This document shows positions 19,909 to 47,033 of a stretch of 64,000 nt of DNA, piece after piece; within the stretch, counting starts at the first letter, position 1; every line of letters begins with the position of its first letter. The DNA is from Methylocapsa sp. D3K7 (GTDB taxonomy: Bacteria > Pseudomonadota > Alphaproteobacteria > Rhizobiales > Beijerinckiaceae). The stretch covers positions 2,108,001-2,172,000 of the forward strand of contig NZ_CP123229.1 in NCBI RefSeq assembly GCF_029855125.1, read 5' to 3'. The notes under the pieces were generated by a model. That model saw only the letters and a list, made by a program, of their open reading frames with translations, had not been told where the DNA came from and ran no database searches. A program made the position numbers and the translations under genes.

Positions 19909-21260
19909 GGGCCGCCTTCGCCGTTCGGCTGGTCGAATGGCATCAGTTTCGGCGTCACTTTGGCTCCTGGATTAACCCGCCAGAGATCCCCGATGATGAC
20001 GCGGTCATCCCCATTCAATCCGGACTGGATGACTCGAAGGTCCCCGTTCAATGGACCAAGCTGAACATAGCGCTGCTCGACGACATCGTCTGGATTGACC
20101 ACCAAAAGATAGCGGCCGCCCTGGTCCGATTGCAAGGCCCGGTCCGGAACCAGCAAGGCGTCTGATAGAACGCGTCCCTTGGGAGCCCGGATCCGGACGA
20201 AGAAGCCCGGCAGCAATGTGCGGTTGGGGTTGCGGAGGATACCGCGCACCAGCAACGTTCCTGTCTGGGGATCAATTCCAGGCGCCACATATTGAATGGT
20301 GCCACGATACGGAAAGCTGTTGCCGTTCTCGATGCCGACTTCGACCGGGATATTGAGAAGTTCGGCAAAGGTCAGCCGGTGCTGCCCGAGATTGGCGCGG
20401 ACCTTTAACAGATCCTGTTCGCTCAAATTGGCCTCGACATAGATCGGGTCGAGCTGCAGGATCTCGGCGAGGACAGTCTGTTGCCCGGCCCCGCCAACCG
20501 TATTGCCGGGATCGACCAGATGTTTGCCCATCTGCCCGTCGAAGGGAGCCCGCACCTCCGTGTAACTAAGATTGAGTTTGGCGATATCGACTTGGGCCCG
20601 GGCCGAAGCAAGTTCAGCGGCCGTCTTTTTTGCCTGGAAGTTCCAGTTGTCGACCACGACTTGCGCTGCGGCGCCTTGCTTTTCGAGGGCGGTGTAGCGT
20701 TTCACTTCGACATTTGCGTAATAAAGCGCCGCTTCTTGCGCCTTCGCCTGGGCCTCAGCCTGAATGAGCTGAGCCTTATATTGTTCTTGCTGCACCGTGA
20801 AGAGCAAATCGCCCCGCTTGACGATCTGTCCGTCCTTGAAATGAATGCTGTCGAGATAGCCTTCCACCCGGGCGATTAGTTTCACCGTGTTGACGGACGC
20901 AGCGTTACCCGTGAGCTCAATATATTCCGTCACACTTTGCGTTTTGGGCTGGATCACGGGAACCACGGGGCCTGTTGCTGCCGGCGGGGTATCCTTCGTT
21001 GCATTCGCGGCGGGCGGCGCATTTTTCGGGGTGCCGGGCGCCTCGTTCTTAGGGGCTGCATCCGGCGCTGGCGCAGGCTGTCCAGGGGTCGCGCCCTTGC
21101 CCATCATTTTTTCCCACCAAGATTCGGAAAATCCTGGCCCAGCCGATCCACCGAGGAAGGCGAAGGCGACCGCCAAAGCGGCGGCGCTGTGCCGCCGGCT
21201 TGTCTTGCCCCGAGCCCGCAACCAGCCCCTGCTTATTGCTGCACAAAACCTCGATCTCAT
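19905..21260 (-). CDS. RND efflux periplasmic adaptor (AcrA/MexA-type)
   Basis: 451 residues from ATG 21260, with AGGGCGG upstream. A signal or anchor segment (about 21-37) is followed by a Pro/Ala-rich stretch, the biotinyl-lipoyl hairpin ('ARVEGYLDSIHFKDGQIVKRGDLLF'), a long alpha-helical hairpin with 'VEVKRYTALEKQGAAAQ', and the beta-barrel region 'LPGFFVRIRAPKG'. It bridges the pump and the outer-membrane factor. Longer readings to 21449 run into the neighbouring gene and lack an export signal. It overlaps the pump gene by 1-4 bp. Confidence 0.9.
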   Translation of the reverse strand: MRSRFCAAISRGWLRARGKTSRRHSAAALAVAFAFLGGSAGPGFSESWWEKMMGKGATPGQPAPAPDAAPKNEAPGTPKNAPPAANATKDTPPAATGPVVPVIQPKTQSVTEYIELTGNAASVNTVKLIARVEGYLDSIHFKDGQIVKRGDLLFTVQQEQYKAQLIQAEAQAKAQEAALYYANVEVKRYTALEKQGAAAQVVVDNWNFQAKKTAAELASARAQVDIAKLNLSYTEVRAPFDGQMGKHLVDPGNTVGGAGQQTVLAEILQLDPIYVEANLSEQDLLKVRANLGQHRLTFAELLNIPVEVGIENGNSFPYRGTIQYVAPGIDPQTGTLLVRGILRNPNRTLLPGFFVRIRAPKGRVLSDALLVPDRALQSDQGGRYLLVVNPDDVVEQRYVQLGPLNGDLRVIQSGLNGDDRVIIGDLWRVNPGAKVTPKLMPFDQPNGEGGP

Positions 21261-21291
21261 AGCAGACCGCCCTTTTTCTTTCCGCTGTGTC

Positions 21292-22941
21292 TCACCATTC
21301 CGGCGCTCGAACTGTTGGGCCGCGATCCTCGGGTCCGGGCAAGCCCGGAGCCGGAAGCGGCGGCTCGCCAGCAGGCGGCAGCAGCTGACCCCAGTTGGTG
21401 CGCTGGCGCATTTCCTCGCTTGTCGCGACGTTGACGAAACCGTTGCCATCCCGGATCTGCCAGCCGCCGCCGAGCGCCCGGAAGACTGAAACCAAGCCCG
21501 TCGAAATATTGCCTGTGGCCATGACGAGATTGTTCTGCGCCTGATAGAGATTTTGCTCCGCCGTCAAGACCGTCACGAAATCGCGTGTCCCTTGTTGATA
21601 TTCGAGCGTTGCTATGTGGAGAGCCCCGCTCGCCGCGACAACGCTGCGCCGCAAATACTCTGCCTGGACGCGCGACAATAGGAAACTGGAAATTCCGTTC
21701 TCGACCTCCTGTTGCGCTTTCAGAACGGTATTCTGATAATCGACGAGATATTGCTGCAAGGTCGCGTCCTGCAGCCTTACGTTGTTGGTGATCTGTCCGT
21801 AATTCAAAAGATTCCATTGGAACGCCGGGCCAACCGAGAAGGACCGGCCGATGGGCTGGAAAACCTGCAGCAGATTGTGGCCGCCGACATTGTTGGCGAT
21901 GCCTCCAAAACTTCCCGTGATGCTGATCGCGGGATAGAGATCTGCTTCGGCCACGCCGATTTGCGCGCTTTGCGCCGCTGCGCGCAATTCGGCGGTGCGA
22001 ATGTCGGGGCGCCGGCGCAACAAATCGGCCGGAACACCAACGACGACTTTCTGAGGCGCGACGGGGATCCGGCCCGTCCCCCTAGCGAGCAAGAAGCCCA
22101 GGGGTTCTGGGGCAATCCCGAGCTGCACGCGGAGCGCATTCAAGCCCTTTTGCAATTGGATTGTCAGCTGCGGGACCGTTGCTTGCGTCGCTCCAAGGAC
22201 GTTTTGCGCCTGGTAGACGTCGAGCATTGTCGCGGCGCCGCCCTTATATCGATCGCGCGCGATGGTCAGAATTCCTTGCTGCTTGACGATGTTTTCGCGG
22301 GCGATCGCAATTTGCGTTTCAAGCGTGCGGATACCTGTATAAGTGGTTGCGACATCGCCAAGGAGAGTCACAAGGACATCGTCATAGCTAGCGATGGAAG
22401 CCAGATAGGCGGAATCGGCGGATTCGACTCCCCGGCGAAATTTACCCCAAAAGTCCAATTCCCAAGCTGCCTTGACGCCGATCGCATCGGCCCAAAAATT
22501 GACGATCCCCGTCGTCGGATTGGCGGCCGGATTGGCCTGACTCAGGAGATTGTAGGTGACCGCGCCGACGGCCTGCTGCTTCTGTGGAAAGAACTCGCCA
22601 ATCGCAACGCCAAGTTCCGCGCGGGCTTGCAGAACCTTGGTGCCGGCGCTCAAAAGCGTCAGATTTTGCGAATAAGCGATGTCGATCAACCGGTCGAGAA
22701 TCGGATCGTGGAAAACGCCCCACCAATCCCTGTATTCCTCCGGCCCCGATTGCAGCGATTTGTTGCGCCATTCAAGCCAATGATCGGCGACAGGCGCAAC
22801 CGGCGGCGCGAAATCGGGTCCGACGGCGCAGCCGGTCAACCCAGCGAGCAGCACCGCGGCGAGCCCCGGGCCAACGCCAGAGTGAGTACCCCGCCGCCAA
22901 AAAAAGCCAGCAGCTACCCGCTTTCGGATATTCTCGAGCAT
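21292..22941 (-). CDS. Outer-membrane efflux lipoprotein (NodT/OprM-type)
   Basis: About 549 residues from ATG 22941. A lipobox (LLAGLTGC) marks a lipidated cysteine near residue 38. The remainder has the duplicated OEP architecture: helical barrel segments around 'AYSQNLTLLSAGTKVLQARAEL' and a second copy around 'VPADLLRRRPDIRTAELRAAA'. It forms the outer-membrane exit duct for the RND system. It is first in the OMF-adaptor-pump operon, with 31 bp to the adaptor. A slightly longer start at 22989 exists but lacks a ribosome-binding site. Confidence 0.9.
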   Translation of the reverse strand: MLENIRKRVAAGFFWRRGTHSGVGPGLAAVLLAGLTGCAVGPDFAPPVAPVADHWLEWRNKSLQSGPEEYRDWWGVFHDPILDRLIDIAYSQNLTLLSAGTKVLQARAELGVAIGEFFPQKQQAVGAVTYNLLSQANPAANPTTGIVNFWADAIGVKAAWELDFWGKFRRGVESADSAYLASIASYDDVLVTLLGDVATTYTGIRTLETQIAIARENIVKQQGILTIARDRYKGGAATMLDVYQAQNVLGATQATVPQLTIQLQKGLNALRVQLGIAPEPLGFLLARGTGRIPVAPQKVVVGVPADLLRRRPDIRTAELRAAAQSAQIGVAEADLYPAISITGSFGGIANNVGGHNLLQVFQPIGRSFSVGPAFQWNLLNYGQITNNVRLQDATLQQYLVDYQNTVLKAQQEVENGISSFLLSRVQAEYLRRSVVAASGALHIATLEYQQGTRDFVTVLTAEQNLYQAQNNLVMATGNISTGLVSVFRALGGGWQIRDGNGFVNVATSEEMRQRTNWGQLLPPAGEPPLPAPGLPGPEDRGPTVRAPEW

Positions 22942-23147
22942 CGGCCATCCTGTTGGTAACGCGCGGCACGCATGTGCCTGCGGGATCACCGGTGAGGGCG
23001 ACTCACGATGTTGTCGCGCAGCATGAAACCTAACATACGGTCACCAAGAGAGCTGTGACATATCCGCAACCGTTGTCCTGATTTCGCTCGCTTCACAGCC
23101 GTGCGGATGAATTCGCCAGCGAGTCCGCATCCTGCGGCACAACGCCA

Positions 23148-29711: not shown

Positions 29712-30071
29712 GAGCGGCTGGGCGCCTGGCGGGTGCGCGCAAAGACGGCAGGCGAGCGTTTCACGTGGAAATTCATTCCAGGCGGAGCCTCTATCCCAGA
29801 GCGGGAACGCCCCCTGTCTGTGCGCATCGGCACCGAACAGTCATTATGTTTGCCCTATGAACATATATAATGAATGAGACGGTGGAGGCGGTTTCGTCAC
29901 GGCCAGCCAAAGTACTGAAGGAAAAGCCGTGAACCTCACCGCCTCAGCAGCGGGGGTACGTTATGAAGTGCCGCCTTCTGTTGCGCCTGCGGTTTAATAG
30001 GCGTAAACTTGGTTTTTTAAAGTATTTTTATTATCTCTCCTGTGCCTCCGGCAGCTGGAATTGCGAGCGTG
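29712..30071. other. Intergenic region upstream of the caspase-like gene
   Basis: 360 bp. It holds a TATAAT hexamer (29866-29871) without a clear -35, an imperfect hairpin (29885-29945) and an AT-rich tract (30010-30035) just before the caspase-like gene. No open reading frame of interest was found. Confidence 0.45.
29885..29945. other. Imperfect hairpin in the leader of the caspase-like gene
   Basis: GAGGCGGT...TCACGG (29885-29902) pairs with CCGTGA...ACCGCCTC (29927-29945) around a 24-nt loop. It may be an mRNA leader structure or terminator-like element; there is no T-run. Confidence 0.35.
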
Positions 30072-32579
30072 GTGAAGAAGATTTCAACCATTGCCGTGCG
30101 ATTTTTAGGCGTATTGGTTATGACCTTTTGGGTCGGAACCGCGCTGGCGGATAAGCGCGTCGCTCTCATTATAGGAAATAGCCAATACGCGCATCTTTCG
30201 CCCAAGCTCGTTAATCCAGCCAACGATGCTCATGATATTGCTCAAGCTTTGGGAAGCATTGGGTTCGAGGTCATCCTGAGGACTGATCTTGGTCAGGGCG
30301 AATTTGAGCACGCGCTTGCCGAATTCGCGCGCAAAGCGACGGACGCTGACACGGCACTCTTTTTTTATGCTGGCCATGGTCTCCAAAACAAAGGGAGGAA
30401 CTATTTTCTTCCAACGGACATCGAGGTCCAGGACGCCGTCGACGTCGAATACCGGGCCATAGATCAGGGCCACATATTGAGCGCGGTTGAGCGCGCGAAA
30501 GGCGTAAAAGTCGTCATTCTCGATGCCTGCCGTGACAATCCTCTCGCAAGGCAGCTCATCGCGACCCGCAGTTGGGGCGGAGGTGGCGAAACGCACGGGT
30601 TGGCGCGCATCGATAACGCGGAGGATACGATCGTCGCCTATGCGACCGCGCCAGACCATGTCGCCAATGACGGGGAGGGCCGAAACAGCCCGTTCACGGC
30701 AGCCCTCCTCAACCGCATCAAGGAACCTGGCCTTGAAATTACAACGATGTTCCGCCGCGTCGCCAATGATGTTTACGAGCGGACTAAGGGAACTCAGCAT
30801 CCCGAGGTGACGACCTCGCTGCGCACCGACTACTATTTGAATCCAAGCGAAAGCGACAGCGCCGCTTGGAGCCGCGTCCGTGATTCGACCGATCCGGCCG
30901 ATTTTATAGAATTCATCCGCAAATTCCCGGCATCGCCGTTTGCGCGTGAAGCGCAATTTCGTATTGACCTTTTTGAACGCATTCGCCGCGAAAATGCGGA
31001 GACAGCGAAGAGGGAGCGTGACCGTATCGCCTTGGAGGCCGAACAGAAACGGCACGCCGAGGAAGCCAAGAAAGAATCCGAGCGCAGCGCCCTCGAAGCC
31101 GAGCAAAAACGCCACGCCGAGGAAGCCAAGAAAGAAGCCGAGCGCAGCGCCCTCGAAGCCGAGCAAAAACGCCACGCCGAGGAAGCCAAGAAAGAAGCCG
31201 AGCGCAGCGCCCTCGAGGCCGAGCAAAAACGCCGCGCCGAGGAAGCAAAGAAAGAAGCCGAGCGCAGCGTCCTTGAGGCCGAGCAAAAACGGCAGGCAGA
31301 GGAAGCCAAGAAGGAAGCCGAACTCATCGCCCAACAGAAAAACGAAGCGGCACGCTTGGAAATGGAAAAGGCCGCCGCTCTACGCCGCGAAGCCGAGCGG
31401 CTGCAAGCCGAAAACCGCGCCGCCGCGGAGCGCGCCAAAGTCGCGGCGCTCGAGGAGGAAAATCGCAAGACTCAAGAGCTGGAGCGGGAAAAACAGCGTA
31501 TCGCTGGAATTTGCACGGGTGACCTGGCCAAATTGAAGGGTTTCACGGCGGCACAGCAAACCCCAGCCATCCAAAATTTGGCGAAGGAGTCGGCTTGTCC
31601 GACGATCCAGCCCGCCATCCAGACCGCTTTGCGTGAGGTGACCCGGGCGATCAAACAGGCTTGCGACGCGGATCGCAAGACCCTTACCTCGCTCAAGGGT
31701 TCCGATATCGAATCTCTCAAAAGCGCGGCGGGACGTATGAGCTGCGAACCGGTTCGTACCGAGGCGCAGCAGCGTGTCGCCAAATTTGAGGACGATATGC
31801 GGCGCGAGCAATCCGTTTGCGCGGACGAAAAGACAAAATTGGGCGCGATCGATGCGAGCGCGGCTGGGGCGCGCCAGCAATTGGTTGAGTTTTCGGCGCA
31901 TGCCGCGTGCCCGTCTCTCCGTACCGAAATCACTGGCAACATCAAAAAAATTGAGGCGCGGGTGACGGAGGCACAAACCGAATTGACCCGGCTCGGCTGT
32001 TATAATGCGCCGGTCAACGGCAAATTTGATGAGGCAACCAAAGCATCTTTGACGCTTTATCACACCAAGAAGGGTTCCCTGGCGGATAATGATCACCTCA
32101 CGGACGGCCTTCTCTCCGAATTGAAGCAGCAAAACCTTGCCTTGTGCCCCCCGGCGCAACCCGCGGCGCCAGCTGTCGCAATGCCAAGCAAGAAGGAAGA
32201 GGTGGCTCCGCCCAAACAGCAAACGATTGAGCACGCCAAGCGGGAGGAAGAGGCTCGCCCAGAGCGTCCCCGGCAGAAGATCGAGACCGGCGCGAAGGAA
32301 GAAGAGCCAGCTGCCAAGCCATCCAGACGGCATAGGGTTCACGATGCCGTACGGGAAGAAGAACCCGCTGAACCGGCGCCGAGACACAGGATACGGAGAG
32401 CCGAGCGGGAAGAAGCGCCGGCGCCACGGGTCCATCAAAGGCCGCATCCGTCCTATGCCAGCGAACGGCCCAAATCTTATGCCGTCCAGAGAGTAAGACG
32501 CGCCCCAAGCATGCCCATGAGTTCGACGGCGACGTCCGGTTCGGGACATAGCGGCGCAACTGTTGGCGTGGGTTTTTAA
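30072..32579 (+). CDS. Caspase-fold (peptidase C14) protein with coiled-coil repeat region
   Basis: About 835 residues from GTG 30072 (GTG 30042 or 30069 possible). A signal peptide (about 1-26) precedes a caspase-like domain. Its catalytic His lies in 'FFYAGHGLQ' (about 102) and Cys in 'ILDACRDNP' (about 153), so the active site looks intact. Residues 310-500 form a charged coiled coil with five 20-residue repeats (ALEAEQKRxAEEAKKEAERS). Beyond it are a short peptidoglycan-binding-like motif ('GCYNAPVNGKFDEATKASL') and a basic Pro-rich tail. It is probably a periplasmic orthocaspase; substrate and partners are unknown. Confidence 0.85.
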   Translation: MKKISTIAVRFLGVLVMTFWVGTALADKRVALIIGNSQYAHLSPKLVNPANDAHDIAQALGSIGFEVILRTDLGQGEFEHALAEFARKATDADTALFFYAGHGLQNKGRNYFLPTDIEVQDAVDVEYRAIDQGHILSAVERAKGVKVVILDACRDNPLARQLIATRSWGGGGETHGLARIDNAEDTIVAYATAPDHVANDGEGRNSPFTAALLNRIKEPGLEITTMFRRVANDVYERTKGTQHPEVTTSLRTDYYLNPSESDSAAWSRVRDSTDPADFIEFIRKFPASPFAREAQFRIDLFERIRRENAETAKRERDRIALEAEQKRHAEEAKKESERSALEAEQKRHAEEAKKEAERSALEAEQKRHAEEAKKEAERSALEAEQKRRAEEAKKEAERSVLEAEQKRQAEEAKKEAELIAQQKNEAARLEMEKAAALRREAERLQAENRAAAERAKVAALEEENRKTQELEREKQRIAGICTGDLAKLKGFTAAQQTPAIQNLAKESACPTIQPAIQTALREVTRAIKQACDADRKTLTSLKGSDIESLKSAAGRMSCEPVRTEAQQRVAKFEDDMRREQSVCADEKTKLGAIDASAAGARQQLVEFSAHAACPSLRTEITGNIKKIEARVTEAQTELTRLGCYNAPVNGKFDEATKASLTLYHTKKGSLADNDHLTDGLLSELKQQNLALCPPAQPAAPAVAMPSKKEEVAPPKQQTIEHAKREEEARPERPRQKIETGAKEEEPAAKPSRRHRVHDAVREEEPAEPAPRHRIRRAEREEAPAPRVHQRPHPSYASERPKSYAVQRVRRAPSMPMSSTATSGSGHSGATVGVGF
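31021..31320 (+). repeat. Five tandem copies of a 60-bp coding repeat
   Basis: Units begin at 31021, 31081, 31141, 31201 and 31261. Units 2 and 3 are identical over 60 bp and the others differ at a few positions. The repeat is in frame (20 residues) and encodes the heptad-like coiled coil of the caspase-fold protein. Such arrays expand and contract by slippage. Confidence 0.95.
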
Positions 32580-35782: not shown

Positions 35783-36754
35783 TTATTTCCAAATGTCGGC
35801 GTCCTCGACGACAACGGGGATAACCCGATCTCCGTCCCGCAAGAATGCCCCCGCACGTGCAACGACCATATCTCCTTCTACGATACCTTGGAGGATTTCG
35901 ACTTTTCCGTCGGATTGTAGACCGGTTGTGACAATCCTTGACTCAACTCTCTCGTCGCGGACTACTTGCACAACGGTACCATCCTCACCGTAAAGCAAGG
36001 CCGATTGGGGAATTGCCGCTCTGTCGCATCTTCGTCCCAAGTTGATGGTGGCCCTGGCAAACATGCCGGGTTTCAGCCGTTCATCGTGGCCGGTCGAGAC
36101 ATGGACTTCGCCCAGTTGGGTTGCTGGATCGACGGTGTTGGAAACAAATCGCACACGGCCCCCCGGCAGTTCTCCGACCCCAACGACCTTGATCTTCGCT
36201 GGAAGGCCGGCGGAGAGTTTCGAAAGGTTCTTTGTCGTGATTTGTGCCGACAGTTCCAACTCCCCGCCAGCGATAATTTGGAATAGCGGCTCCGCTCTCG
36301 CCGACGCCATGGTTCCCACCACAGCACTTGCCTTGCCGACAAGTCCAGCGACAGGAGCTTGAACCGAAACCGGATCTCCCGATCCCTGCTGAACTTCAGG
36401 ATTTGCAAGTTGCGCGAGCGCCTGACCGGCATTCACTTTCGCGCCGGCCTCAACGAGAACCTTCGAGATTAGGTAGCCTTCCCGATCCGGCCGCACCAGG
36501 ACTTCGGCTTTCGGAACGAGCCCGCCGGTGATCTCCTCTGTGTCATCGAAGCAGGTCTTCTTCGCCCTTGTCACGCTGACTGCCGCGCCCTTGGAAACCT
36601 TGGTTTCGGGCACGCTGGCGGCAAACACTTGCGACGCCGCACTCAAAAAAAGGCCAGTTGGGACGACCAACGCTGACAATCCAAGCGTTGCGATCCGAGA
36701 TCGGAGAAACATAGTCATGACGGGAGCTCTCATGCTGTCCTTCAGCCTGCTCAT
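35783..36754 (-). CDS. Orphan RND-type efflux periplasmic adaptor (HlyD/MFP family)
   Basis: 323 residues with an export signal (about 20-45). The core has the lipoyl-like half motifs 'VRPDREGYLISKVLVEAGAKVNAGQALAQL' and 'VQAPVAGLVGKASAVVGTMAS', then 'RLKPGMFARATINLG' of the barrel domain. The alpha-hairpin is very short. It resembles the adaptor at 43726-44661, sharing 'RAxKxCFxDT' and 'GxLVPxxE' near the start, but no pump gene follows. It may share the RND pump at 40611 or serve another. Confidence 0.82.
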   Translation of the reverse strand: MSRLKDSMRAPVMTMFLRSRIATLGLSALVVPTGLFLSAASQVFAASVPETKVSKGAAVSVTRAKKTCFDDTEEITGGLVPKAEVLVRPDREGYLISKVLVEAGAKVNAGQALAQLANPEVQQGSGDPVSVQAPVAGLVGKASAVVGTMASARAEPLFQIIAGGELELSAQITTKNLSKLSAGLPAKIKVVGVGELPGGRVRFVSNTVDPATQLGEVHVSTGHDERLKPGMFARATINLGRRCDRAAIPQSALLYGEDGTVVQVVRDERVESRIVTTGLQSDGKVEILQGIVEGDMVVARAGAFLRDGDRVIPVVVEDADIWK

Positions 36755-36925: not shown

Positions 36926-39397
36926 TCATACAGTGTTGGCGGCTGAGGGAGGGACAAAAACCCGTTCTTGGCATTGCGATTCGTCCCGCCATGCCCGGAT
37001 CTCGTAGGCCGGCATGGGTCTGTTGAAGCCTTTCAGGTTCAGTGCGCCAATAGGCGCGGCGTCGACGCATTGCTCAACCAAGCCAAATGCCCGTTGGCTG
37101 ATCACGATCTGGCCGGCCTTTGCCTCGTCGCAGAGCCGCGATGCAAGATTGGTAACGCTTCCCACCGCCGCATATTCCAGGCGGCGGTCAAATCCAACTT
37201 GACCAAGAGTAGCATAGCCCAGGGCAATTCCAATTCCAAAACCCAGCGAGTGTCCGCGGCTGCGCCAATTCTCGGAAAGCTTGCCCACGCTATCGCGCAT
37301 CTCCACCGCCATCCGGACAGCACGCTGAGTATGGTCCGGATAAGGGATCGGATCGTTGAACAAGATCAAAATGCCATCCCCGGCGAAGCGGTCCAAGGTT
37401 CCTTCGAACCGGAAAATGATTTCTCCCAATACGGCGTGGTACTCGCGAAGCACTTTCATGACTTCTTCGGGCTCGGTGCTTTCGGTAAAGGCTGTGAATC
37501 CTCTCAAGTCGCAGAACACCACCGTTACCTCGCGGCGGTGACTCGCAAGCAGCGAGGCATTCTCGTCGGAGGAAGCAATCACTTGCGCCAATTGGGGTGC
37601 CAGGAACCGCCGCAACCGGCCGATCCGTTCAATTTCCGCCAATTGCGTCGCCACCCGCTCCTCCAGCAAAAGGTTCCATGATCCCAATTGCTCGGTCTGT
37701 TCCATGAGCTTCGTTGCTTGCTGCTGGACGGTATCATGCGCTTTCGCCAGCTCACGGCCTTTCTGATCTATTTCATGGAAAAGCCGGGCGTTCTGCATGG
37801 CGAGAACCGACTGGTGGGCAAAGGTTTGCATCGAGCCAACCGTATTCGACGCCAAGGCCCCGGCCGCTTTGCGCTGCACCACCAGTGCGCCAAGAACCTC
37901 GTCCTGGCCCGCGAGCGGAACGATGAGTATTGAGCTTATTCCATCGATCAGCGGCAGGCTTTTCAAAGGAGAGCCGGGCGCATTCAACACATCCGCGACG
38001 AATATAGATTCTCGCTTTTTGCAAGCAGTACTTATGAGACTGTCGTCCTCGTCAATCCGGACGAAACGCGCGGCATCCCCCTGGGACTTCTCGATACCAA
38101 AAGTTTGTGCGAGTTCGAAGACCCCCGAGGAGCTATCATAACAGTAAATGGCCCCGGCATCGGCTTGCGTGATTTGGACCGCGTTGGTGACGATCGTCCG
38201 AAGCACCGAATCTAGGTCGAGCGAGGAGTTGATGGCACGCCCGGTCTCCTCGAGTACTTTCAATTCACTCACTGTTTGAGCAAGATCGCGGGTTCGCTCC
38301 TCGACTTTCTGTTCGAGGCGCGAGTAGGATTCCTGGAGCTGACCGGCCATCCGGTTGAAATGGTCCGCGAGTTCCTCAACCTCGTCTCCGGTTTTCACGT
38401 CGATGCGGTGGCCAAATTCGTTCGCGCCAAGCTCACGCGCTCCGGCTTGAAGCTTCCGTATCGGAACGACCATTCGGCGCGCCAGCAGCGTTCCAGCGCC
38501 GATTGCAAGCATAAGACCCAACGCCATCAATAAGCCAACCCGCGCAAGCATAGCGTAGATCGGCGCCAATACCTGGCTCAAGGGCTCCTCGTAGAAAACA
38601 AACCAATTCAATTGCGGAACCGGCGCGGACGCTGTCAGCACCGATCGCCCACTTAGGTCTTTGCCGATGGAGAGGGGACTTGCGTTGGGATTCAGCACGG
38701 CTGCGACCTGGGGAAGCCCGGAGAGATCCGTAGCGGGACTTTGGGTCGCATCGGAATCCGCGAGCAGCCGACCGCTCTGATCGACCAGATAAGCCGTGTT
38801 CGACTTCCCGGCCTCTGTCGCGCTCACAAAATCCGAAAGAAATTTCAGATTGATCTCGGCAACCGTAACACCGGCGTTGCGGCCCAAATGGGCCAAGGCG
38901 ATCAACGTGAAGGGATCGCGCCCATGGAAATAGACGGGCGACCACCATACACCCTTGCCGAGCGCTGCCGTAAATCTTGGATCGTGCGAATAATCGGTTC
39001 CTTTCCCAATCGTAAAGGTCTTGCGCAAGGATCTCAGCTGCTCATGACCCGTTGCGTCGATCTGTACGAGCTCCTCGATCGCCGGTATCTGGTCCAGCAG
39101 CTCCGCATAGTCCGACTGCCGCTGTTCAATCGTGACGACGCTCGCTCGCGTCACCCAGCTGATATGGCGTTCGATATCGGACATGGTCTGTTCGATACGG
39201 CGCGCCGTCGCCACTGCCCTTTGGGATTGCGCACCAACCAGCGCCGTCGTTGTCTCGCGATACATAAACCATGTTTCGACAGCACCGTTCACGACGAGAA
39301 CAAATATGACCAGGCCGACAAACGAGACGACGAATTTGGTGAACACACCTCCCCGGCGCATCCATCCCCCGCGCGGCGCCTTGTCCATTTCATTCAC
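36926..39397 (-). CDS. Membrane class III nucleotide cyclase (Cache-HAMP-GAF-cyclase)
   Basis: 823 residues from GTG 39397 (ATG 39388 possible). TM1 at about 22-42, a periplasmic sensor of Cache type (about 50-275), TM2 (about 283-305), HAMP (about 306-358), coiled coil, GAF (about 395-545), a second coiled coil and a cyclase domain (about 620-800). Metal ligands Asp630 (FCDLRGF) and Asp674 (AGDG) and the Asn750/Arg754 pair are present. The purine-selecting positions appear as Arg670 and Ser747 rather than the usual Lys and Asp/Thr, so cAMP versus cGMP cannot be decided. It is divergent from a Crp-type regulator gene. Confidence 0.88.
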   Translation of the reverse strand: MNEMDKAPRGGWMRRGGVFTKFVVSFVGLVIFVLVVNGAVETWFMYRETTTALVGAQSQRAVATARRIEQTMSDIERHISWVTRASVVTIEQRQSDYAELLDQIPAIEELVQIDATGHEQLRSLRKTFTIGKGTDYSHDPRFTAALGKGVWWSPVYFHGRDPFTLIALAHLGRNAGVTVAEINLKFLSDFVSATEAGKSNTAYLVDQSGRLLADSDATQSPATDLSGLPQVAAVLNPNASPLSIGKDLSGRSVLTASAPVPQLNWFVFYEEPLSQVLAPIYAMLARVGLLMALGLMLAIGAGTLLARRMVVPIRKLQAGARELGANEFGHRIDVKTGDEVEELADHFNRMAGQLQESYSRLEQKVEERTRDLAQTVSELKVLEETGRAINSSLDLDSVLRTIVTNAVQITQADAGAIYCYDSSSGVFELAQTFGIEKSQGDAARFVRIDEDDSLISTACKKRESIFVADVLNAPGSPLKSLPLIDGISSILIVPLAGQDEVLGALVVQRKAAGALASNTVGSMQTFAHQSVLAMQNARLFHEIDQKGRELAKAHDTVQQQATKLMEQTEQLGSWNLLLEERVATQLAEIERIGRLRRFLAPQLAQVIASSDENASLLASHRREVTVVFCDLRGFTAFTESTEPEEVMKVLREYHAVLGEIIFRFEGTLDRFAGDGILILFNDPIPYPDHTQRAVRMAVEMRDSVGKLSENWRSRGHSLGFGIGIALGYATLGQVGFDRRLEYAAVGSVTNLASRLCDEAKAGQIVISQRAFGLVEQCVDAAPIGALNLKGFNRPMPAYEIRAWRDESQCQERVFVPPSAANTV

Positions 39398-39817
39398 CGA
39401 AATCTGTGGGACGCAACATTGAGCTTATCCCGAATATAGCTAAAGCCAGGAGGGCTGCACGACCGCAACACGCTTTAAGAAAAATGTTTTCCCGATTGGC
39501 CCCCTCGGTTTGGGCGATTTTACAGGTTATTTTCTGTAATATCCGCCTGTAACGCAGTCGCGTCTCATGTGTCAACGGCGCAATCCAAAATCTGCGTTGG
39601 CACTTCGGATGACGCGAGCCCGGCGGCTGCGAGAGACTCATGGCGTCGTCTCTACCTATCATTCCTGGAATTGAAGACCGGCTTTGGCTGTTCCAAAAAA
39701 TCCGGAAATATGGAATTTTGGGACGCGGAAGGGCGTTCCCGTAATCGAGCAATGATTGACTGGCGGCGCAAGCTGTCCATAGGTCTTGTATCGTCCCCGC
39801 ATGAACATCCTTGGATC
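39398..39817. other. Divergent regulatory region between cyclase and Crp-type genes
   Basis: 420 bp. It holds the TTACAG/CTGTAA half-sites at 39520-39552. A longer frame of the Crp gene back to 39569 has no similarity and no ribosome-binding site, so it is treated as leader. TTGACT at about 39758 with a weak ATAGGT 17 bp later could be the regulator promoter. Confidence 0.45.
39520..39552. promoter_or_regulatory. Cluster of three TTACAG/CTGTAA half-sites
   Basis: TTACAG (39520-39525) and CTGTAA (39534-39539) form an inverted repeat with an 8-bp spacer. A third CTGTAA follows at 39547-39552. They lie between the cyclase and Crp-type genes and look like an operator; the half-site is not the classic Crp TGTGA. 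Confidence 0.4.
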
Positions 39818-40498
39818 ATGGCGATGAGCAAGCAGTCTGAATTTGCGGTGCTCCTCGGGTTAAATCCCCTCTTCTCCGGCTTGGGCAGCGATTCGATCAA
39901 CAAGATCGCCGCATTGTGCCATACGCGTTATCTCGCCACTGGCGAGTTCCTGTTCCAAAAAGGCGACAGTGGCGACGCGTTGTTTGGGATTCGACGAGGA
40001 CAGATTCGCATCGAGACCGGCTCGGCCGCTGGCGGGCGGGTCACGATGAATGTGCTCGGTGCGGGTGATCTCTTTGGAGAAATTGCGGTGCTCGATGGTC
40101 AAAACCGCACCGCCGACGCAACGGCGGGAGAACCGAGCGAACTTTTCGTTGTCCGCCGGAATGATTTCCTGGCCTTTCTTGAGAGCGAGCCCCGGGTGGC
40201 CGTGAAACTTATCGCACTGCTCTGCCAGCGGATCAGATGGGCCAGCGGCCGCTTCGAAGAGGCGGTCTTGTTACCCCTTAAGGTTCGGCTGGCGCGACGG
40301 CTCTGCGGCCTTGCCAGCGATTTCGGATCGGAGATTCACATTTCTCAGGAACAGTTGGGAATCTATGTGGGGGCGGCACGCGAAAGCGTTAACCGTCAAT
40401 TGCAGCAATGGCGGCAGCAAGGAATCCTCGAGATCCACCGTGGCCGTATTTTGTTGTTGAATGCCAGCCGTCTCAGGGCGGCGGCACGCGAGAACTGA
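39818..40498 (+). CDS. Crp/Fnr-family transcription regulator
   Basis: 226 residues from ATG 39818 (ATG 39824 possible). The cyclic-nucleotide-binding fold is seen in 'LATGEFLFQKGDSGDALFGIRRGQIRI' and 'GAGDLFGEIAVLDGQNRTADATA'; the latter is the phosphate-binding cassette with Gly-Glu and a downstream Arg. The C-terminal winged helix has 'ISQEQLGIYVGAARESVNRQLQQWRQQG'. There are no Fnr-type N-terminal cysteines. It likely binds the cyclase product made by its divergent neighbour and controls the surrounding efflux genes; both points are inferred from position. Confidence 0.88.
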   Translation: MAMSKQSEFAVLLGLNPLFSGLGSDSINKIAALCHTRYLATGEFLFQKGDSGDALFGIRRGQIRIETGSAAGGRVTMNVLGAGDLFGEIAVLDGQNRTADATAGEPSELFVVRRNDFLAFLESEPRVAVKLIALLCQRIRWASGRFEEAVLLPLKVRLARRLCGLASDFGSEIHISQEQLGIYVGAARESVNRQLQQWRQQGILEIHRGRILLLNASRLRAAAREN

Positions 40499-40610: not shown

Positions 40611-43600
40611 CTAATCAGCGGCAGGATACGTAGGCTCGCTTTTTTTCGATTGCTCGATCTCCTGTCCCACGCTGAGGAGGCGTTTACCGAGCCGCCACGT
40701 CAACCGCGAAATATCGTCCATCAGCGTGAAAACGGCCGGAACGAAGACGAGCGACAGCGCGGTTGAAACAAGCAGTCCGCCGATCACGGCAATCGCCATG
40801 GGCGACCGGAATTCCCCCCCAGCGCCAAATGCAAGCGCGCTCGGGACCATGCCGGCAATCATGGCGACCGTCGTCATGATGATCGGCCGCGCCCGCTTCT
40901 GACCAGCATCGATGATTGCGGCATCGCGCTCCATGCCATGGCGAATAGATTCAATTGCAAAGTCGACCAGCATGATCGCATTTTTCGTGACGATGCCCAT
41001 CAGCATCAGGATTCCGATCCAGACGGGCGTGGTGAGCTGTTTGCCGGTCAGCAGAAGCGCAAGGATCGCCCCGCCGATCGAGAGCGGCAGTGAAAATAAG
41101 ATTGTAACTGGCTGCAAGAAACTTCCAAACAGAAGCACAAGCACCGCATAAACCATCATCAAGCCGTAGCTCATGGCGTTGGCAAAGCCATCGGCCAGCT
41201 CATTGAGGCTCTCCGCGTCGCCCGACTGGTTGACGATGATTCCCTTGGGAAGGCTCTTCATCACCGGCAGAGCATTGATCTCCAGCATCGCATCGCCGAG
41301 CGCGGAACTGCCCGCGAGATCCGCCGCGACCGTAGCCTGGCGCTCGCGGTCATAACGGTTGATACTGGTCGGTCCCTGATAAAATTGGATATCGGCGATT
41401 GTTGATAGCGGAACCCCGCCTCCGCGGCCTGTGGGCACCCGCAGCTGCTCAATCACCTGTTGGTCGGCACGGGCGTTGGCCTCGAGCTGGACACGAATAG
41501 GAACCAGGCGATCGCCCGCGTTGAACCTCGCCAGCGCCGGACCGACGTCACCAATCGTTGCGACCCTGATCGTCTCCGCCAAGCTCTCCGTCGGCACGCC
41601 AAGGCGAGCTGATAGGTCTGTCCGCGGACGAATGCGAAGCTCTGGCCGGTCAAGCGACATGTCCGTCGTAACATTTTCAACGAGCGGTATGGCCTTCATC
41701 TCATTGGCAAGCTCGCTGGCGACATTCACGACGGTCATGCCGTCTCCTCCGGTCACCACCAGAGAGATTGCCCGCAGCCCGTTCTCGTCAGTAAACCAGT
41801 ACCGAATGTCAGGAACGCCATCAAGCTCGCGGCCTATGGACAATTCCAGGTCCCGCTGGCTGATCGCCCGCTCGGATTTCGGTTTGTAATTGATGATCAA
41901 CCCAGCCCGGCGGATCTCATTCGCCCGTTGCGGTGTTCTTCCGCCATCGACGAAGACGCTTCTGACTTCCGGCCGCTTACGCAAGCGGGCGGCGATAGCC
42001 TCCGTCGCTTTTTCCGTGTCGGAGAGTTGCGAGCCGGGGGGCAGTTCGATCGCCAGGACCGAGCGCGCCGAATCCTGCGCTGGCAGGAAACCCTTGGACA
42101 ACAAACCCACGCTCCAAATCGACAGAGCGAACAACAGCAAACCCGTGAATACGGTCACGAAATGGTGCTGAACCGACCAGGTCACCAGACGAACATAAGC
42201 CTTAGATAGGCGCCCCGGCGGTTTTTCCGGCTGATGATGCGGGCGGAGGAAATAGGCGGCCAGCATCGGAGTGACAAGGCGCGCCGACAGCAGGGAGAAC
42301 AAAACCAGCGCTGAGACGGTGATGCCGAACTGCTTGAAGAACTGGCCCGCGATCCCGGACATGAAGCTTGCGGGCGCAAAAATCGCAACAATCGTCAAGC
42401 TAATTGCGATGACCGCAAGGCCAATCTCATCGGCGGCTTCGAGGGCCGCCTGATAGGGCGATTTTCCCATCAGCATATGACGCACAATGTTCTCGATCTC
42501 GACGATCGCGTCATCGACGAGAATGCCGGTGCTCAGCGTAATCGCGAGAAAACTCACAAGGTTGAGAGAAAACCCCAGAACATCCATCACCCAGAATGCC
42601 GGGAATATCGAAAGCGGCAGGGAGATCGCCGCGATCACCGTGGCCCGAAAATCGCGCAAGAACAGGAACACGACGATAACCGCCAAAGCGGCGCCTTCGA
42701 ACAGTGTCTGTATCGCCGCTTCGTAATTGCCCTGGGTAAAGTCGACCGAGGTGTCAATCAGCCTGAGTTCGACATCTGGATTGGCCCGTTTGAGTTCATC
42801 GACGCGTTTTTGCACCGCCTCGGCGACGACGACATCACTCGCCCCCTTCGAGCGTTTGATCCCGAACGCCACGATGGGCTCACCATTGAGCCGTGCGAAA
42901 GTTCGCCGGTCGGCAATTGTGTCGGTCACTATGCCAAGATCATCAAGCCGGACCTCGCCGCCCCCGGGCAGGCTGATCATCGTCGCCGCCAGTTCATTTA
43001 GAGTCTGCGCCGAGGCAAGCGTACGGATCGTCTGATCGCGGCCACCGATTTCGGCGCGGCCGCCAGCAAGATCCACATTTGTGCCGCGCAAGCGATGGCT
43101 CACATCGGCCGCCGTCAAGCCAACCGCCTGCAGCCTGTCGGGATCAAGCGAAACAAGGATTTCCCGCTCGACGCCACCGATACGCTCGACTTGCGCAACG
43201 CCACGGACTCCCTGCAGGGAGCGGGTGACGGTGTCGTCCACGAACCATGAGAGCTGCTCCGGTGTCTTCCCTGGAGCGATCGCCGCATAGGTGACGATCG
43301 GCAAGCCGACCACGTCAACGCGCTGAATCAGCGGCTCCTCGACATTTCGCGGAAGCTTCGCGCGAACGCGGGTGACTGCATCCTTGACATCATTGAGGGC
43401 GCGATCAGTATTTGTCTCGAGCCTAAACATGACGGTTGTGACCGAAACTCCGTCGCTGATCGACGACGCGATGTGACGGACTCCCTCCACGCCGGAAACG
43501 CCGTCTTCGATCGTCTTCGTGACCTGCGATTCGAGTTCGGCCGGCGCTGCTCCGAACTGGGCCACGACCACGGATATCACTGGGATATCGGCGTTTGGCA

Positions 43601-43715
43601 GGCGGGTCACCGGCAGTCTGTTGAAGCTCGTCCAGCCAAGCACCAAAAGGATGATCGACAAAACGATCGAGGGGAGCGGCCGGCGGATCGACCAGGCCGA
43701 AATGTTCAGCGCCAT
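40611..43715 (-). CDS. RND efflux permease (HAE1/AcrB-like)
   Basis: 1034 residues from ATG 43715, 10 bp after the adaptor stop. It has 12 TM RND architecture: 'NISAWSIRRPLPSIVLSIILLVLGW' at TM1 and 'TLSTGILVDDAIVEIENIV' with the proton-relay Asp pair; the TM10 motif is 'VTKNAIMLVDFAIE'. It is closer to the broad 'hydrophobe/amphiphile' branch than to the pump at 16735. It forms an operon with the adaptor at 43726. No outer-membrane factor gene is nearby, so one must be borrowed. Confidence 0.92.
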   Translation of the reverse strand: MALNISAWSIRRPLPSIVLSIILLVLGWTSFNRLPVTRLPNADIPVISVVVAQFGAAPAELESQVTKTIEDGVSGVEGVRHIASSISDGVSVTTVMFRLETNTDRALNDVKDAVTRVRAKLPRNVEEPLIQRVDVVGLPIVTYAAIAPGKTPEQLSWFVDDTVTRSLQGVRGVAQVERIGGVEREILVSLDPDRLQAVGLTAADVSHRLRGTNVDLAGGRAEIGGRDQTIRTLASAQTLNELAATMISLPGGGEVRLDDLGIVTDTIADRRTFARLNGEPIVAFGIKRSKGASDVVVAEAVQKRVDELKRANPDVELRLIDTSVDFTQGNYEAAIQTLFEGAALAVIVVFLFLRDFRATVIAAISLPLSIFPAFWVMDVLGFSLNLVSFLAITLSTGILVDDAIVEIENIVRHMLMGKSPYQAALEAADEIGLAVIAISLTIVAIFAPASFMSGIAGQFFKQFGITVSALVLFSLLSARLVTPMLAAYFLRPHHQPEKPPGRLSKAYVRLVTWSVQHHFVTVFTGLLLFALSIWSVGLLSKGFLPAQDSARSVLAIELPPGSQLSDTEKATEAIAARLRKRPEVRSVFVDGGRTPQRANEIRRAGLIINYKPKSERAISQRDLELSIGRELDGVPDIRYWFTDENGLRAISLVVTGGDGMTVVNVASELANEMKAIPLVENVTTDMSLDRPELRIRPRTDLSARLGVPTESLAETIRVATIGDVGPALARFNAGDRLVPIRVQLEANARADQQVIEQLRVPTGRGGGVPLSTIADIQFYQGPTSINRYDRERQATVAADLAGSSALGDAMLEINALPVMKSLPKGIIVNQSGDAESLNELADGFANAMSYGLMMVYAVLVLLFGSFLQPVTILFSLPLSIGGAILALLLTGKQLTTPVWIGILMLMGIVTKNAIMLVDFAIESIRHGMERDAAIIDAGQKRARPIIMTTVAMIAGMVPSALAFGAGGEFRSPMAIAVIGGLLVSTALSLVFVPAVFTLMDDISRLTWRLGKRLLSVGQEIEQSKKSEPTYPAAD

Positions 43716-43725
43716 TGCGGCATTC

Positions 43726-44661
43726 TCAATTGTCCGGCTCGTCGACAAGAATTGTTTGCACTCGATCGCCATCATGCAGCGACGTGCCAGCATTGGCGAC
43801 GACGATGTCGCCCTCGTTGAGGCCTTCGCTGATTTCAAAACGGGTATCGGAAGAAAGCCCGACGCGAACCCGACGCGTCTCGACCATCTGGCCTCGCACC
43901 ACCTGCACGCTGGTTCCCTCGGTCTGATTTAAGATGGCCTCGCGCGGCACGGCCACACCACAGCTTTGGCTGGCATCAATCGTTGCCTCGGTGAACATTC
44001 CAATCCGCAGCGAGGGAGCCTGCGCAACCGAAAGACGCGCCCGGCCGAGTTGTGTCGTTCGATCGATTTGGGCCGGCACAAGGCGGACTTGTCCGATCAG
44101 TTCCGTGCCGTCTTCTAACTTGATCCGCGCGGTTTCCTCCGGTTTGAGTTTCGGCACATGGATGCCCGGCACGTCGGCTTCGAGTTCGATTTCATTGTCG
44201 ACCATAATTCGGAACAGCGGCTCGCCACGCGGCGATAACACCGCCCCGACCGTTGCGGCCGATTGGGTCACAAGGCCAGCAGCAGGAGCCTTCAAGGTAA
44301 TGGTGTTAGATGCCAGCTTTGCTGACGCGGACGCGCCGGCGGACGGGCCTGGGACCAGTCTTGTCCCGCGTGCAAGGACTTGCCCAGTTATTACTAGATC
44401 ACCTGCCGCGGCCAAGACTTCAGTGACTCGGGTTCCCTCGTCGAGACTTACGACGGCTTCCTGTCTGGGTACGAGGATGCCGGAGACGTAAATCGTGTCA
44501 GAGAAGCATTCCTTGGTGGCACGAACGAGCTTCACAATGACGCCGCCCCCGAACTCCGGCGGCGCGGCAAATGCGCCTCCGCGCTCAGACCCGCAAAGAA
44601 CCGCCCCGGCGAGAAAAGTTGCCGATGCGACACCGATCTTAATCAGGACGGAGGATTTCAT
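43726..44661 (-). CDS. RND efflux periplasmic adaptor
   Basis: 311 residues from ATG 44661. The export segment 'IGVASATFLAGAVLC' leads to a possible lipid or signal site. Conserved halves 'VSLDEGTRVTEVLAAAGDLV' and 'LKAPAAGLVTQSAATVGAVL' form the lipoyl domain; 'SLRIGMFTEATIDAS' marks the barrel. It is shorter than classical AcrA. It resembles the orphan adaptor at 35783, including the Cys in 'TKECFSDT'. It is the first gene of the adaptor-pump pair. Confidence 0.87.
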   Translation of the reverse strand: MKSSVLIKIGVASATFLAGAVLCGSERGGAFAAPPEFGGGVIVKLVRATKECFSDTIYVSGILVPRQEAVVSLDEGTRVTEVLAAAGDLVITGQVLARGTRLVPGPSAGASASAKLASNTITLKAPAAGLVTQSAATVGAVLSPRGEPLFRIMVDNEIELEADVPGIHVPKLKPEETARIKLEDGTELIGQVRLVPAQIDRTTQLGRARLSVAQAPSLRIGMFTEATIDASQSCGVAVPREAILNQTEGTSVQVVRGQMVETRRVRVGLSSDTRFEISEGLNEGDIVVANAGTSLHDGDRVQTILVDEPDN

Positions 44662-44796
44662 CACAAGACCATGCCATAGCCCGAAACACATTGCTGATCG
44701 CTGCGAGACTCCATATCCGCTCTCCGCATCCGGAGGGAGAGCCATGGACGACTTCCTCCCAGGGTGGAGTCACGTTTCAAAGCTTGCTCTCGTCTC

Positions 44797-45512: not shown

Positions 45513-47033
45513 TTAATGAATGCCACTCCTATCAAATGCCGCGGCAATGGCGGGATCGATCTGTTTCGCCGCGGTGATATCGCTGTCCCCGCCGGTGGAA
45601 TCGCCGGTCTGTTTCTTGGCTATGCCACGCCCATACAACGATGATGCTTGTTTCTTGATCTGCAGCGCCGCTTCATAATCGCCGATCGCGCTCGATGGCT
45701 CGCCAATTTTCAATTTGACAAAGCCGCGGCTGTCCAAGGCATCGGCATAAACCGGCCGAAGCTGAAGCGCCTCGTTACAGTCCTTGAGCGCTGTCTTGGA
45801 ATCGCCGACCATGGCGCGGGCCCAGCAGCGATTGTTGAGCGCCTCGGCATCCTTTGGATGGAGCCGAAGCGTCTCGTCGAAATCCTCAATGGCGCGGGAA
45901 AACTCACCGGTCTTCGCATAAAGTTGACCCCGCCTGTAGAACGCGGCGGCATCCTTTGGATTCTTTTGAAGATATTTATCTAGATCCTTTATCGCATCGC
46001 GGTCCTTGGGATCGGCGCTCGCTTCCTCCACCGGCAGCTTCGGAACTGGCGCCGCATCCGGCGCCACGGGAACGTCGAGCTTCGCCAATTGGTCTTGCGC
46101 AGGTCCTGCATAGTTTCCGGATGGATATTTGCGGAGGAAATCCTCCCATGCTTGTCGCGTTCCCAGTTGCTGAGCAAGCTCGTAATCGTGCTTCTCTTCG
46201 GCTGCCGCATCAGCCGCCGGTGCTGGCGTGTTTGCCTTCCCAATCAGATTGACCGCAGCTACCTGGCCGAAGATGAAATCCTCATTCAGCGAGGAATAAT
46301 TCGAAGGGTTCTGCTCGCCCTGGCTTGCTCGCAAGACGCCCATGCGCGTGCGGTTGAAGACCTCTTCGGCGGGAACGCCGGGCGCCCGCATTTCATTAAG
46401 CAATTCGCTGACAAACAGGCTCCGGTCCGCCGCTGAATCTCGAACCACGCTGCCCGATCCAGCCGAGTACATGACCAGCGTTCCACTCGGCGGATTGGCA
46501 GGCAACGCAAGCCCAAGGGGAACCGGGCGGAAATTGCCTTCAAACCGGTTGCGCCGCGAAGCGTCGAGAATGGCGATTTTGACGTTGGCGCCCTTTTTGT
46601 TCATCTCGGACAAAACATTGTCCACACTCATTCCATCATGCCGAACGTCGTTTTCTTTGTAGATCTGTCCATCGACTGGGATCATGTAGCTCTGCCGGTT
46701 CGACTGAATCCCGAAGCCGCTGAAGAAGAGCAGGGCGACCGTACCCGGCTGTATTTTGTCGAACAAACGGGTGAAGGCGCGTTGCATCTCCTCTTTCGTC
46801 AGGTTCTCTCCTTCCTCTACTTGAAATCCATCGCGCGTGAGTTCATCGCCCAAAGCACGGGCGTTGCCGATGGGCTGGGTCAATTTGGGGTCGGCGTTGG
46901 GATAATTGGCATTACCAATGATCAAGGCCACGCGTGCACCCCGCCCCCCTGCATCGGCCTGCTGCGCGAAAGCATCGTGGGCGGCGGCCGGCATGAGGAG
47001 GGTCGAAATAACAAGAATAAAGGCTCTGCGCAT
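45513..47033 (-). CDS. Caspase-fold pseudoenzyme with TPR repeats
   Basis: 506 residues. A signal peptide (about 1-23) precedes a caspase-like domain (about 33-265) with the typical start 'RVALIIGNANYPN'. The catalytic His position reads Phe107 (FFSGFGIQ, not GHG) and the Cys position reads Ser159 (ILDASRRN, not DAC), so proteolysis is not expected. About four TPR units follow (about 350-490: 'DAAAFYRRGQLYAKTGEFSRAIEDFDETLRLHP'). It probably acts as a periplasmic scaffold or decoy partner of the OmpA protein encoded 65 bp downstream. A TTGACG/TGTAAT promoter-like pair lies upstream near 47080. Confidence 0.84.
   Translation of the reverse strand: MRRAFILVISTLLMPAAAHDAFAQQADAGGRGARVALIIGNANYPNADPKLTQPIGNARALGDELTRDGFQVEEGENLTKEEMQRAFTRLFDKIQPGTVALLFFSGFGIQSNRQSYMIPVDGQIYKENDVRHDGMSVDNVLSEMNKKGANVKIAILDASRRNRFEGNFRPVPLGLALPANPPSGTLVMYSAGSGSVVRDSAADRSLFVSELLNEMRAPGVPAEEVFNRTRMGVLRASQGEQNPSNYSSLNEDFIFGQVAAVNLIGKANTPAPAADAAAEEKHDYELAQQLGTRQAWEDFLRKYPSGNYAGPAQDQLAKLDVPVAPDAAPVPKLPVEEASADPKDRDAIKDLDKYLQKNPKDAAAFYRRGQLYAKTGEFSRAIEDFDETLRLHPKDAEALNNRCWARAMVGDSKTALKDCNEALQLRPVYADALDSRGFVKLKIGEPSSAIGDYEAALQIKKQASSLYGRGIAKKQTGDSTGGDSDITAAKQIDPAIAAAFDRSGIH

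Follow-up and report, generated by a model that had tools for sequence, protein, structure and literature searches.

The locus described here raises a simple question: what does a bacterium do with a caspase-fold protein whose catalytic residues are gone? The gene lies in a 64,000-nt stretch of the Methylocapsa sp. D3K7 genome (NZ_CP123229.1, positions 2,108,001 to 2,172,000; hereafter the window). A sequence-only reading had proposed that its product is a caspase-fold pseudoenzyme with a signal peptide and C-terminal TPR repeats, and that it forms a periplasmic scaffold module with an OmpA-like protein. Below, dyads are written as the two residues at the catalytic His and Cys places, HC being the intact form, and the features of the window are collected in the table.

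Searched against Pfam, the protein matched Peptidase_C14 (PF00656) with an E-value of 5e-34 together with several TPR models, and these two types of model were its only matches (the set holds no separate p10 model). The proposed caspase fold and C-terminal TPRs are thus backed by domain matches, and the signal peptide is likely by eye, as the N-terminus reads like a Sec signal ending in DAFA-QQ. The motif FFSGFGIQ starts at residue 103 and puts Phe107 at the His position, while ILDASRR, starting at residue 155, puts Ser159 at the Cys position. When the protein was aligned to the solved paracaspase MALT1 (3v4o; E 4e-13), the same two residues lined up with the GHG His and the DMC Cys, the catalytic residues of MALT1. 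Motif positions and the alignment to MALT1 agree with the dyad assignment made earlier. Judged from its sequence, the window protein is probably an exported, catalytically dead caspase-fold/TPR protein.

Table. Features of the window, with positions counted from its first letter.
Feature	Position	Strand	Basis
FS-dyad pseudo-orthocaspase with C-terminal TPRs, 506 aa	45513..47033	-	ORF, Pfam, dyad alignment
Likely signal peptide, residues 1-23	46965..47033	-	By eye from translation
Caspase p20 domain, residues 34-253	46275..46934	-	PF00656
Asn57 codon, place of pocket Asp	46863..46865	-	Alignment of 121 sequences
Phe107 codon, catalytic His place	46713..46715	-	Dyad and MALT1 alignments
Ser159 codon, catalytic Cys place	46557..46559	-	Dyad and MALT1 alignments
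TPR region, residues 345-500	45534..46001	-	Pfam
OmpA-domain protein, 216 aa	44797..45447	-	PF00691, E 3.5e-15
MFP1, RND periplasmic adaptor without alpha-hairpin	43726..44745; likely start 44661 (inferred)	-	Pfam, alignment, model
Short linker of ~21 aa between the lipoyl halves of MFP1	44302..44364	-	Alignment
RND permease	40611..43838; likely start 43715 (inferred)	-	ACR_tran, E 1e-230; motifs
Crp-type regulator between cyclase and RND genes	39569..40498	+	Domain match
Cache-HAMP-GAF-nucleotide cyclase	36926..39397	-	Pfam; same locus in relatives
MFP2, second hairpinless adaptor, no adjacent RND gene	35783..36754	-	Alignment
Intact HC caspase	30042-32579	+	ORF and dyad

The loss of the dyad is a property of the family. 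A protein search scored 7998 candidates, of which 2970 matched, and we took the best 120 of these 2970 (one being the window's own protein). In the resulting alignment of 121 sequences (these 120 plus the query) every sequence carries Phe or Tyr plus Ser (FS 94, YS 27) and His/Cys occurs in none. Both other sampled genomes of the genus have a YS protein as their best homologue, and not the His/Cys form that would have spoken against the earlier reading. As the substitutions are found family-wide, a pseudogene or a read error is ruled out, in line with the earlier argument that two separate codon changes do not come from one sequencing error. Among the loci that were fetched, we counted 123 distinct ORFs with a match at E below 1e-50, a set that comes partly from a genome scan biased toward dyad residues; 122 of them read FS (82), YS (29), YA (6), VS (2), IS (1), LS (1) or IA (1), and the last (L109) owes its match to its TPRs and carries an HC p20 in another part of its sequence. 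As this named-genome scan used patterns that contain dyad residues, the conservation of the dyad cannot be judged from its loci; it can be from the protein and family-genome searches. The scan's best 80 of 485 loci were kept, and the sets of loci (L numbers) and genomes (G numbers) overlap in part.

A quick, midpoint-rooted tree of caspase proteins, built on 69 representatives out of 170 usable rows and keeping the dyad columns, placed the window protein in a clade of 37 rows, none of them HC (SH-aLRT 100). With a dead dyad throughout this clade, the dyad was most simply lost before the clade spread, and the description of the protein as a pseudoenzyme holds for the clade as it does for the 121 sequences. 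A second dead lineage, mostly YA and about 800 aa long, falls among the HC side of the tree. The strict retention of Ser in 121 of 121 close relatives could be read as a sign that Ser159 is a new nucleophile and the protein a serine-type hydrolase. We find this scarcely credible and rejected it: Ala stands at 159 in two members linked to the pump described below (L221 from G219, and L086/L117 from G071), which argues against a Ser nucleophile, and position 107 holds Phe, Tyr, Ile, Leu or Val, none of which is a general base of the caspase kind.

C-terminal TPRs are common as well, with TPR models in 34 of the 37 rows of alignment A3; a cruder check for 'DSRG' was positive in every locus but five cut by contig or flank ends, and is uninformative. 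One pump-linked FS pseudocaspase (L230, from G262), its adaptor about 2.2 kb away, has nine Sel1 stretches that replace most of the TPR matches, a swap which hints that having a solenoid may matter more than its exact kind. In a search for plasmid-borne copies, 343 records matched, none covering 80% of the query and all under 60% identity.

As reported earlier, an OmpA gene follows the pseudocaspase gene after 65 bp, and its domain was confirmed as PF00691. A gap of 51 bp separates it from the adaptor gene MFP1, and the RND permease gene comes next on the same strand. The OmpA-domain protein has Asp146 and Arg161, which we take to be the wall-binding pair and which are kept in 67 of 68 rows (the other has a gap); no lipobox-like motif was seen in it. 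In the permease ORF, DDAIV occurs at 442 and KNAIM at 952, presumably the RND proton-relay motifs. The two gaps, of 65 and 51 bp, are free of terminator-like sites. One such site separates the transhydrogenase gene upstream from the pseudocaspase gene; over the region, terminator-like sites are not rarer than in shuffles (14 vs 8.1). A search just upstream of the pseudocaspase gene gave no sigma-70-like promoter. None of the 12 OEP-domain matches of the genome falls in the operon, which thus encodes no outer-membrane channel; many RND pumps share a channel that is encoded elsewhere. Among 646 ORFs with any hit, we found no fusion of a caspase with OmpA, adaptor or RND. An anti-phage defence island was considered and rejected, since PADLOC returned only weak caspase/MotB and generic cyclase-domain matches among 7 proteins. 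The window also holds a canonical RND pump at 16735-22989 with its own outer-membrane factor; its adaptor (19905-21449) keeps a long insert by eye, so that the pump serves as a contrast within the same stretch.

We then asked how widely this layout is kept, using the best 80 of 485 loci from the named-genome scan, of which 65 offer 4 kb or more of downstream sequence. Since neighbours were identified with phmmer from the window's proteins, genes that have diverged may escape detection. In 44 of the 65 loci, adaptor and RND genes lie downstream (FS 29, YS 14, IS 1, with dyad residues being part of the scan patterns), and in 40 of these 44 the OmpA gene is directly downstream of the pseudocaspase gene. 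The four exceptions are L022 and L025, without OmpA there, and the Nitrobacter loci L027 and L032, with OmpA upstream. Pump-linked loci occur in Bradyrhizobium, Rhodopseudomonas, Nitrobacter, Tardiphaga and Methylobacterium, genera of which cultured and for the most part harmless members exist. The other 21 loci form a paralogue group (FFDG 20, FFGG 1) with none of OmpA, adaptor or RND nearby. The OmpA pairing that had been proposed is therefore conserved in the pump-linked loci, and a periplasmic scaffold module is plausible as far as it goes; as a description it is incomplete, the most widely kept neighbours being the hairpinless adaptor and the RND pump.

Searches from the adaptor side gave a similar picture, with counts that come from related genomes and are not independent, so that a Fisher p-value, which ignores relatedness, carries no weight here. 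In f36, the family of genome G133, 100 genomes were searched in this way; MFP1 was found in 28, and all 28 also have a match to the pseudocaspase family. In 22 of the 28 the two genes share a strand and are no more than 3.5 kb apart. Of the other six, five have them on separate contigs; in the sixth, G296, about 8 kb lies between them, and the one match there is of the TPR-less kind described below. In the window's family, f1, the hairpinless MFP1 is present in 10 of 99 genomes and a pseudocaspase in 7 of these 10, the one in G048 being no more than a fragment of 112 aa, with the motif FSGFGIQ, at the edge of a contig. The remaining three f1 genomes (G009, G050 and G007, the last a fragmented assembly) have a hairpinless adaptor and RND, with no pseudocaspase or OmpA detected. 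Conversely, pseudocaspase-family genes occur without MFP1 in G308 and G294 of f36. Among the matches listed for an order-level sample of 121 genomes, those that run long and unbroken come from three genomes only, namely the window's own, G133 and G208.

Such partial loci bear on the possibility that pseudocaspase and OmpA form a separate wall-bound module and that the pump next to them, though conserved, has a function of its own. This would account for G308 (L245), where the pseudocaspase has OmpA beside it and no pump, for the three f1 genomes with a pump and neither pseudocaspase nor OmpA detected, and also for the paralogues that have neither pump nor OmpA. It fits less well with G040 and G076, two genomes of the window's genus: here a YS pseudocaspase (41-42% identity) still adjoins adaptor and RND, although OmpA was not detected in the 18-kb stretches searched, in which the pump genes are present. 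Nor does it fit with a second, TPR-less pseudocaspase that lies within 1.5 kb of MFP2 in 14 of 28 MFP2 rows, and we consider a separate module unlikely on the whole. At the G040 and G076 loci (L116 and L115 between them) the RND protein is 65% identical to that of the window and adaptor and pseudocaspase only 41-45%, which suggests fast divergence or replacement.

Canonical RND adaptors dock the outer-membrane channel through an alpha-hairpin. MFP1 is without it. An AlphaFold2 model of MFP1 (33 rows, mean pLDDT 86.3) is predicted to consist of strands and an unstructured linker, with no hairpin helices, as expected from the short linker seen in the alignment. Adaptors fall into two classes with no intermediate lengths: 130 rows in 115 loci have a linker of 3-34 aa, and 48 rows in 48 loci bear a hairpin in a linker of 104-105 aa. 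A caspase hit was found in 97 of the 115 hairpinless-adaptor loci vs none of the 48 hairpin-bearing loci, a count in which the loci differ in length, many flanks are about 1.5 kb and some genes are repeated between rows. The caspase itself had been the way into many of the 115 loci, which makes the searches from the adaptor side the fairer test. In a tree of 33 adaptors with the linker columns removed, the hairpinless ones of both kinds lie on one side of a single branch (support 100/98). Hairpin loss is thus one event in the sampled adaptors, the link to the pseudocaspase is not independently replicated, and the co-occurrence may reflect shared ancestry.

The second adaptor, MFP2, is conserved near MFP1 in many relatives. 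The TPR-less pseudocaspase near it is in the opposite orientation (convergent); in L232, L242, L244 and L248 it is an ORF of 290-335 aa with a YS or FS dyad, and the match covers p20 only. This short form is absent from the window's genome. Distances from MFP1 or MFP2 range from 155 bp to 7.1 kb for the 11 best f36 homologues of the cyclase, which makes the cyclase a putative member of the pump system; the Crp-type regulator would be a further candidate. In G294, which is without MFP1, a cyclase homologue stands beside an FS pseudocaspase (L247).

If the pseudocaspase works with an exporter, its dead pocket might still be of use. C39-like domains linked to some type I secretion systems bind cargo, and by analogy the dead protease pocket could bind a peptide-like substrate and present it to the exporter. 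RND pumps mostly carry small molecules, and no substrate gene was noticed in the operon, which speaks against such a cargo receptor. The pocket itself gives a mixed answer. Asp157 is kept in 121 of 121 sequences, in favour of a receptor. The other pocket place, column 57, holds Asp in 83 sequences, Asn in 37 and a gap in one; Asn is the residue of the window's group. By our reading, column 57 matches the pocket Asp of TbMC2, the role of which has been described (Klemencic et al., 2019; PMC6426788). In the 37 clade rows, variation is lower near the dead dyad than in the rest of p20 (mean entropy 1.10 vs 1.45, regions chosen by eye), which would favour a retained surface; in 17 HC rows the difference is larger still (1.06 vs 1.72), so that the low variation may be only a remnant. 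Non-proteolytic C39-like domains have been described (PMC8277102) and provide a precedent. Weighing these points, we regard the cargo receptor as distinctly improbable.

The window's genome has four caspase-domain genes, two HC, one FS (that of the window) and one YA; the YA caspase (L083, G000:C1:4023590-4024249) lies in an 879-aa open frame and belongs to a separate tree lineage. The sequence-only reading had pointed to a catalytically intact caspase-fold protein 15 kb away and to a possible link with it. The intact protein is present, at about 13 kb end to end rather than 15. The link is borne out in part, and more so than a single pair at that distance would suggest. HC caspases are near the pseudocaspase gene in a subset of loci, and most of the 80 loci show none in the flank: one was found in the upstream flank of 4 of the 80, 68 of which have 5 kb or more upstream. 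In addition, an HC caspase lies beside the pseudocaspase gene in G071, G226 and G308, and within about 2-4 kb of it in G258, G288, G289, G266 and G292. Within f36, HC-motif caspases near the pseudocaspase were noted in L251, L252, L253, L254, L255, L228 and L245. Of 7 loci compared, the one in G071 alone has an HC caspase related to the window's HC protein over its full length, and on the tree the HC neighbours fall into more than one lineage.

These neighbours invite an alternative in which the pseudocaspase is a stress or death regulator that acts on an intact caspase, or takes part in a death pathway as proposed for SyOC, the Synechocystis pseudo-orthocaspase. The four flanks and eight genomes listed above could be taken in its favour, as could G308, where HC caspase, pseudocaspase and OmpA follow one another without the pump, and the finding that deletion of SyOC raised oxidative-stress tolerance (PMC7889975). 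The mixed lineages of the HC neighbours and the many loci without one, pump linkage being commoner, argue against it, and regulation of true orthocaspases has been judged unlikely (Klemencic et al., 2019; PMC6426788). We hold a regulator of this kind to be a long shot. Still, the HC caspases found near the gene in several genomes raised our estimate for it a little and slightly lowered that for a role with the pump.

We give a little over an even chance to the reading that the pseudocaspase is a functional, non-enzymatic accessory of an unusual, hairpinless RND exporter. Its gene is associated with those for OmpA, hairpinless adaptor and RND; how the products would bind each other can be outlined as follows. 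The RND protein would sit in the inner membrane with the hairpinless adaptor round it, joined by the OmpA-domain protein and by a dead caspase whose solenoid would bind proteins. The p20 pocket and the TPR solenoid may bind peptides or partners (adaptor, RND head, channel tip or OmpA). Arg161, Glu165 and Trp125 (the last in 35 of 37 rows, with Tyr in the window protein) are conserved in the clade and not in HC proteins, and lie near the dead site in the sequence, as would be the case for a re-used surface. Since OmpA binds peptidoglycan, the pseudocaspase-OmpA pair would hold the hairpinless pump at the wall, and could help it to reach or recruit an outer-membrane channel encoded elsewhere. 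A bolder version, in which dead caspase and OmpA are a structural substitute for the hairpin, spanning or sealing the gap from RND and adaptor to the channel, is tentative and on balance doubtful. If true, hairpin substitution would be a role for the caspase fold that we have not seen described, and would explain how a hairpinless pump is assembled.

Several observations count against an accessory role. The pump occurs without a detected pseudocaspase (G007, G009, G050) and the pseudocaspase without MFP1 (G308, G294), 21 of 65 loci have no OmpA, adaptor or RND nearby, fusions were not found, and HC caspases are near the gene in a subset of loci. No sigma-70-like promoter marks the start of the proposed operon and terminator-like sites are no rarer than in shuffles. 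Furthermore, BesA of Borrelia works hairpinless, with no such partner known in the available parts of its description (PMC3807786).

How does the locus compare with known systems? The window protein is of the same class as the FS/TPR pseudo-orthocaspases of Klemencic et al. (2019; PMC6426788), sharing p20, His to Phe, Cys to Ser, C-terminal TPRs and the order Rhizobiales, in which FS-dyad pseudo-orthocaspases are reported to carry TPRs consistently. According to the same source YS proteins are mostly without identifiable domains, whereas YS members with TPRs are common here (YS accounts for 14 of the 44 pump-linked loci, and TPR models match 34 of the 37 rows of A3). The parts of that paper available to us tie pseudo-variants to photosynthesis and mention no pump linkage, and 'OmpA' occurs 0 times in the main text. 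We found no Photo_RC (PF00124) match in the window's genome, the one genome searched, and the published photosynthesis guess for this group misfits a genome without a reaction-centre match. SyOC is likewise a dead orthocaspase, but a cyanobacterial one with an oxidative-stress phenotype (PMC7889975). OmpA has been reported in 14 of 217 operons of caspase homologues (Asplund-Samuelsson et al., 2012; PMC3501461); the available sections of that work list transporters among cell-surface operons, name no RND adaptor and do not specify which operons have dead dyads.

For the adaptor the closest parallel is BesA, which likewise has lipoyl, barrel and membrane-proximal parts and no alpha-hairpin (PMC3807786). 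Our adaptor profile A2 matches BesA (4kks) along positions 37-312, and scores 6vej, MexJ and ZneB above it, 7 of the 33 rows in A2 being hairpin-bearing. The bes operon includes a TolC-like gene and, in the available parts of its description, no known substitute for the hairpin, and the authors could not exclude an unidentified factor that compensates for it (PMC3807786). For such a factor the pseudocaspase, either alone or together with OmpA, is a candidate here. The operon of the window differs from bes in that it has no channel gene, but a pseudocaspase and an OmpA protein. Our literature searches of open-licence PMC papers did not find the linkage of pseudocaspase, OmpA, adaptor and RND. 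The protein class is already known. What is new, and can be put to the test, is its conserved association with a hairpinless RND pump, which gives the question of what prokaryotic pseudo-caspases do a concrete partner to start from.
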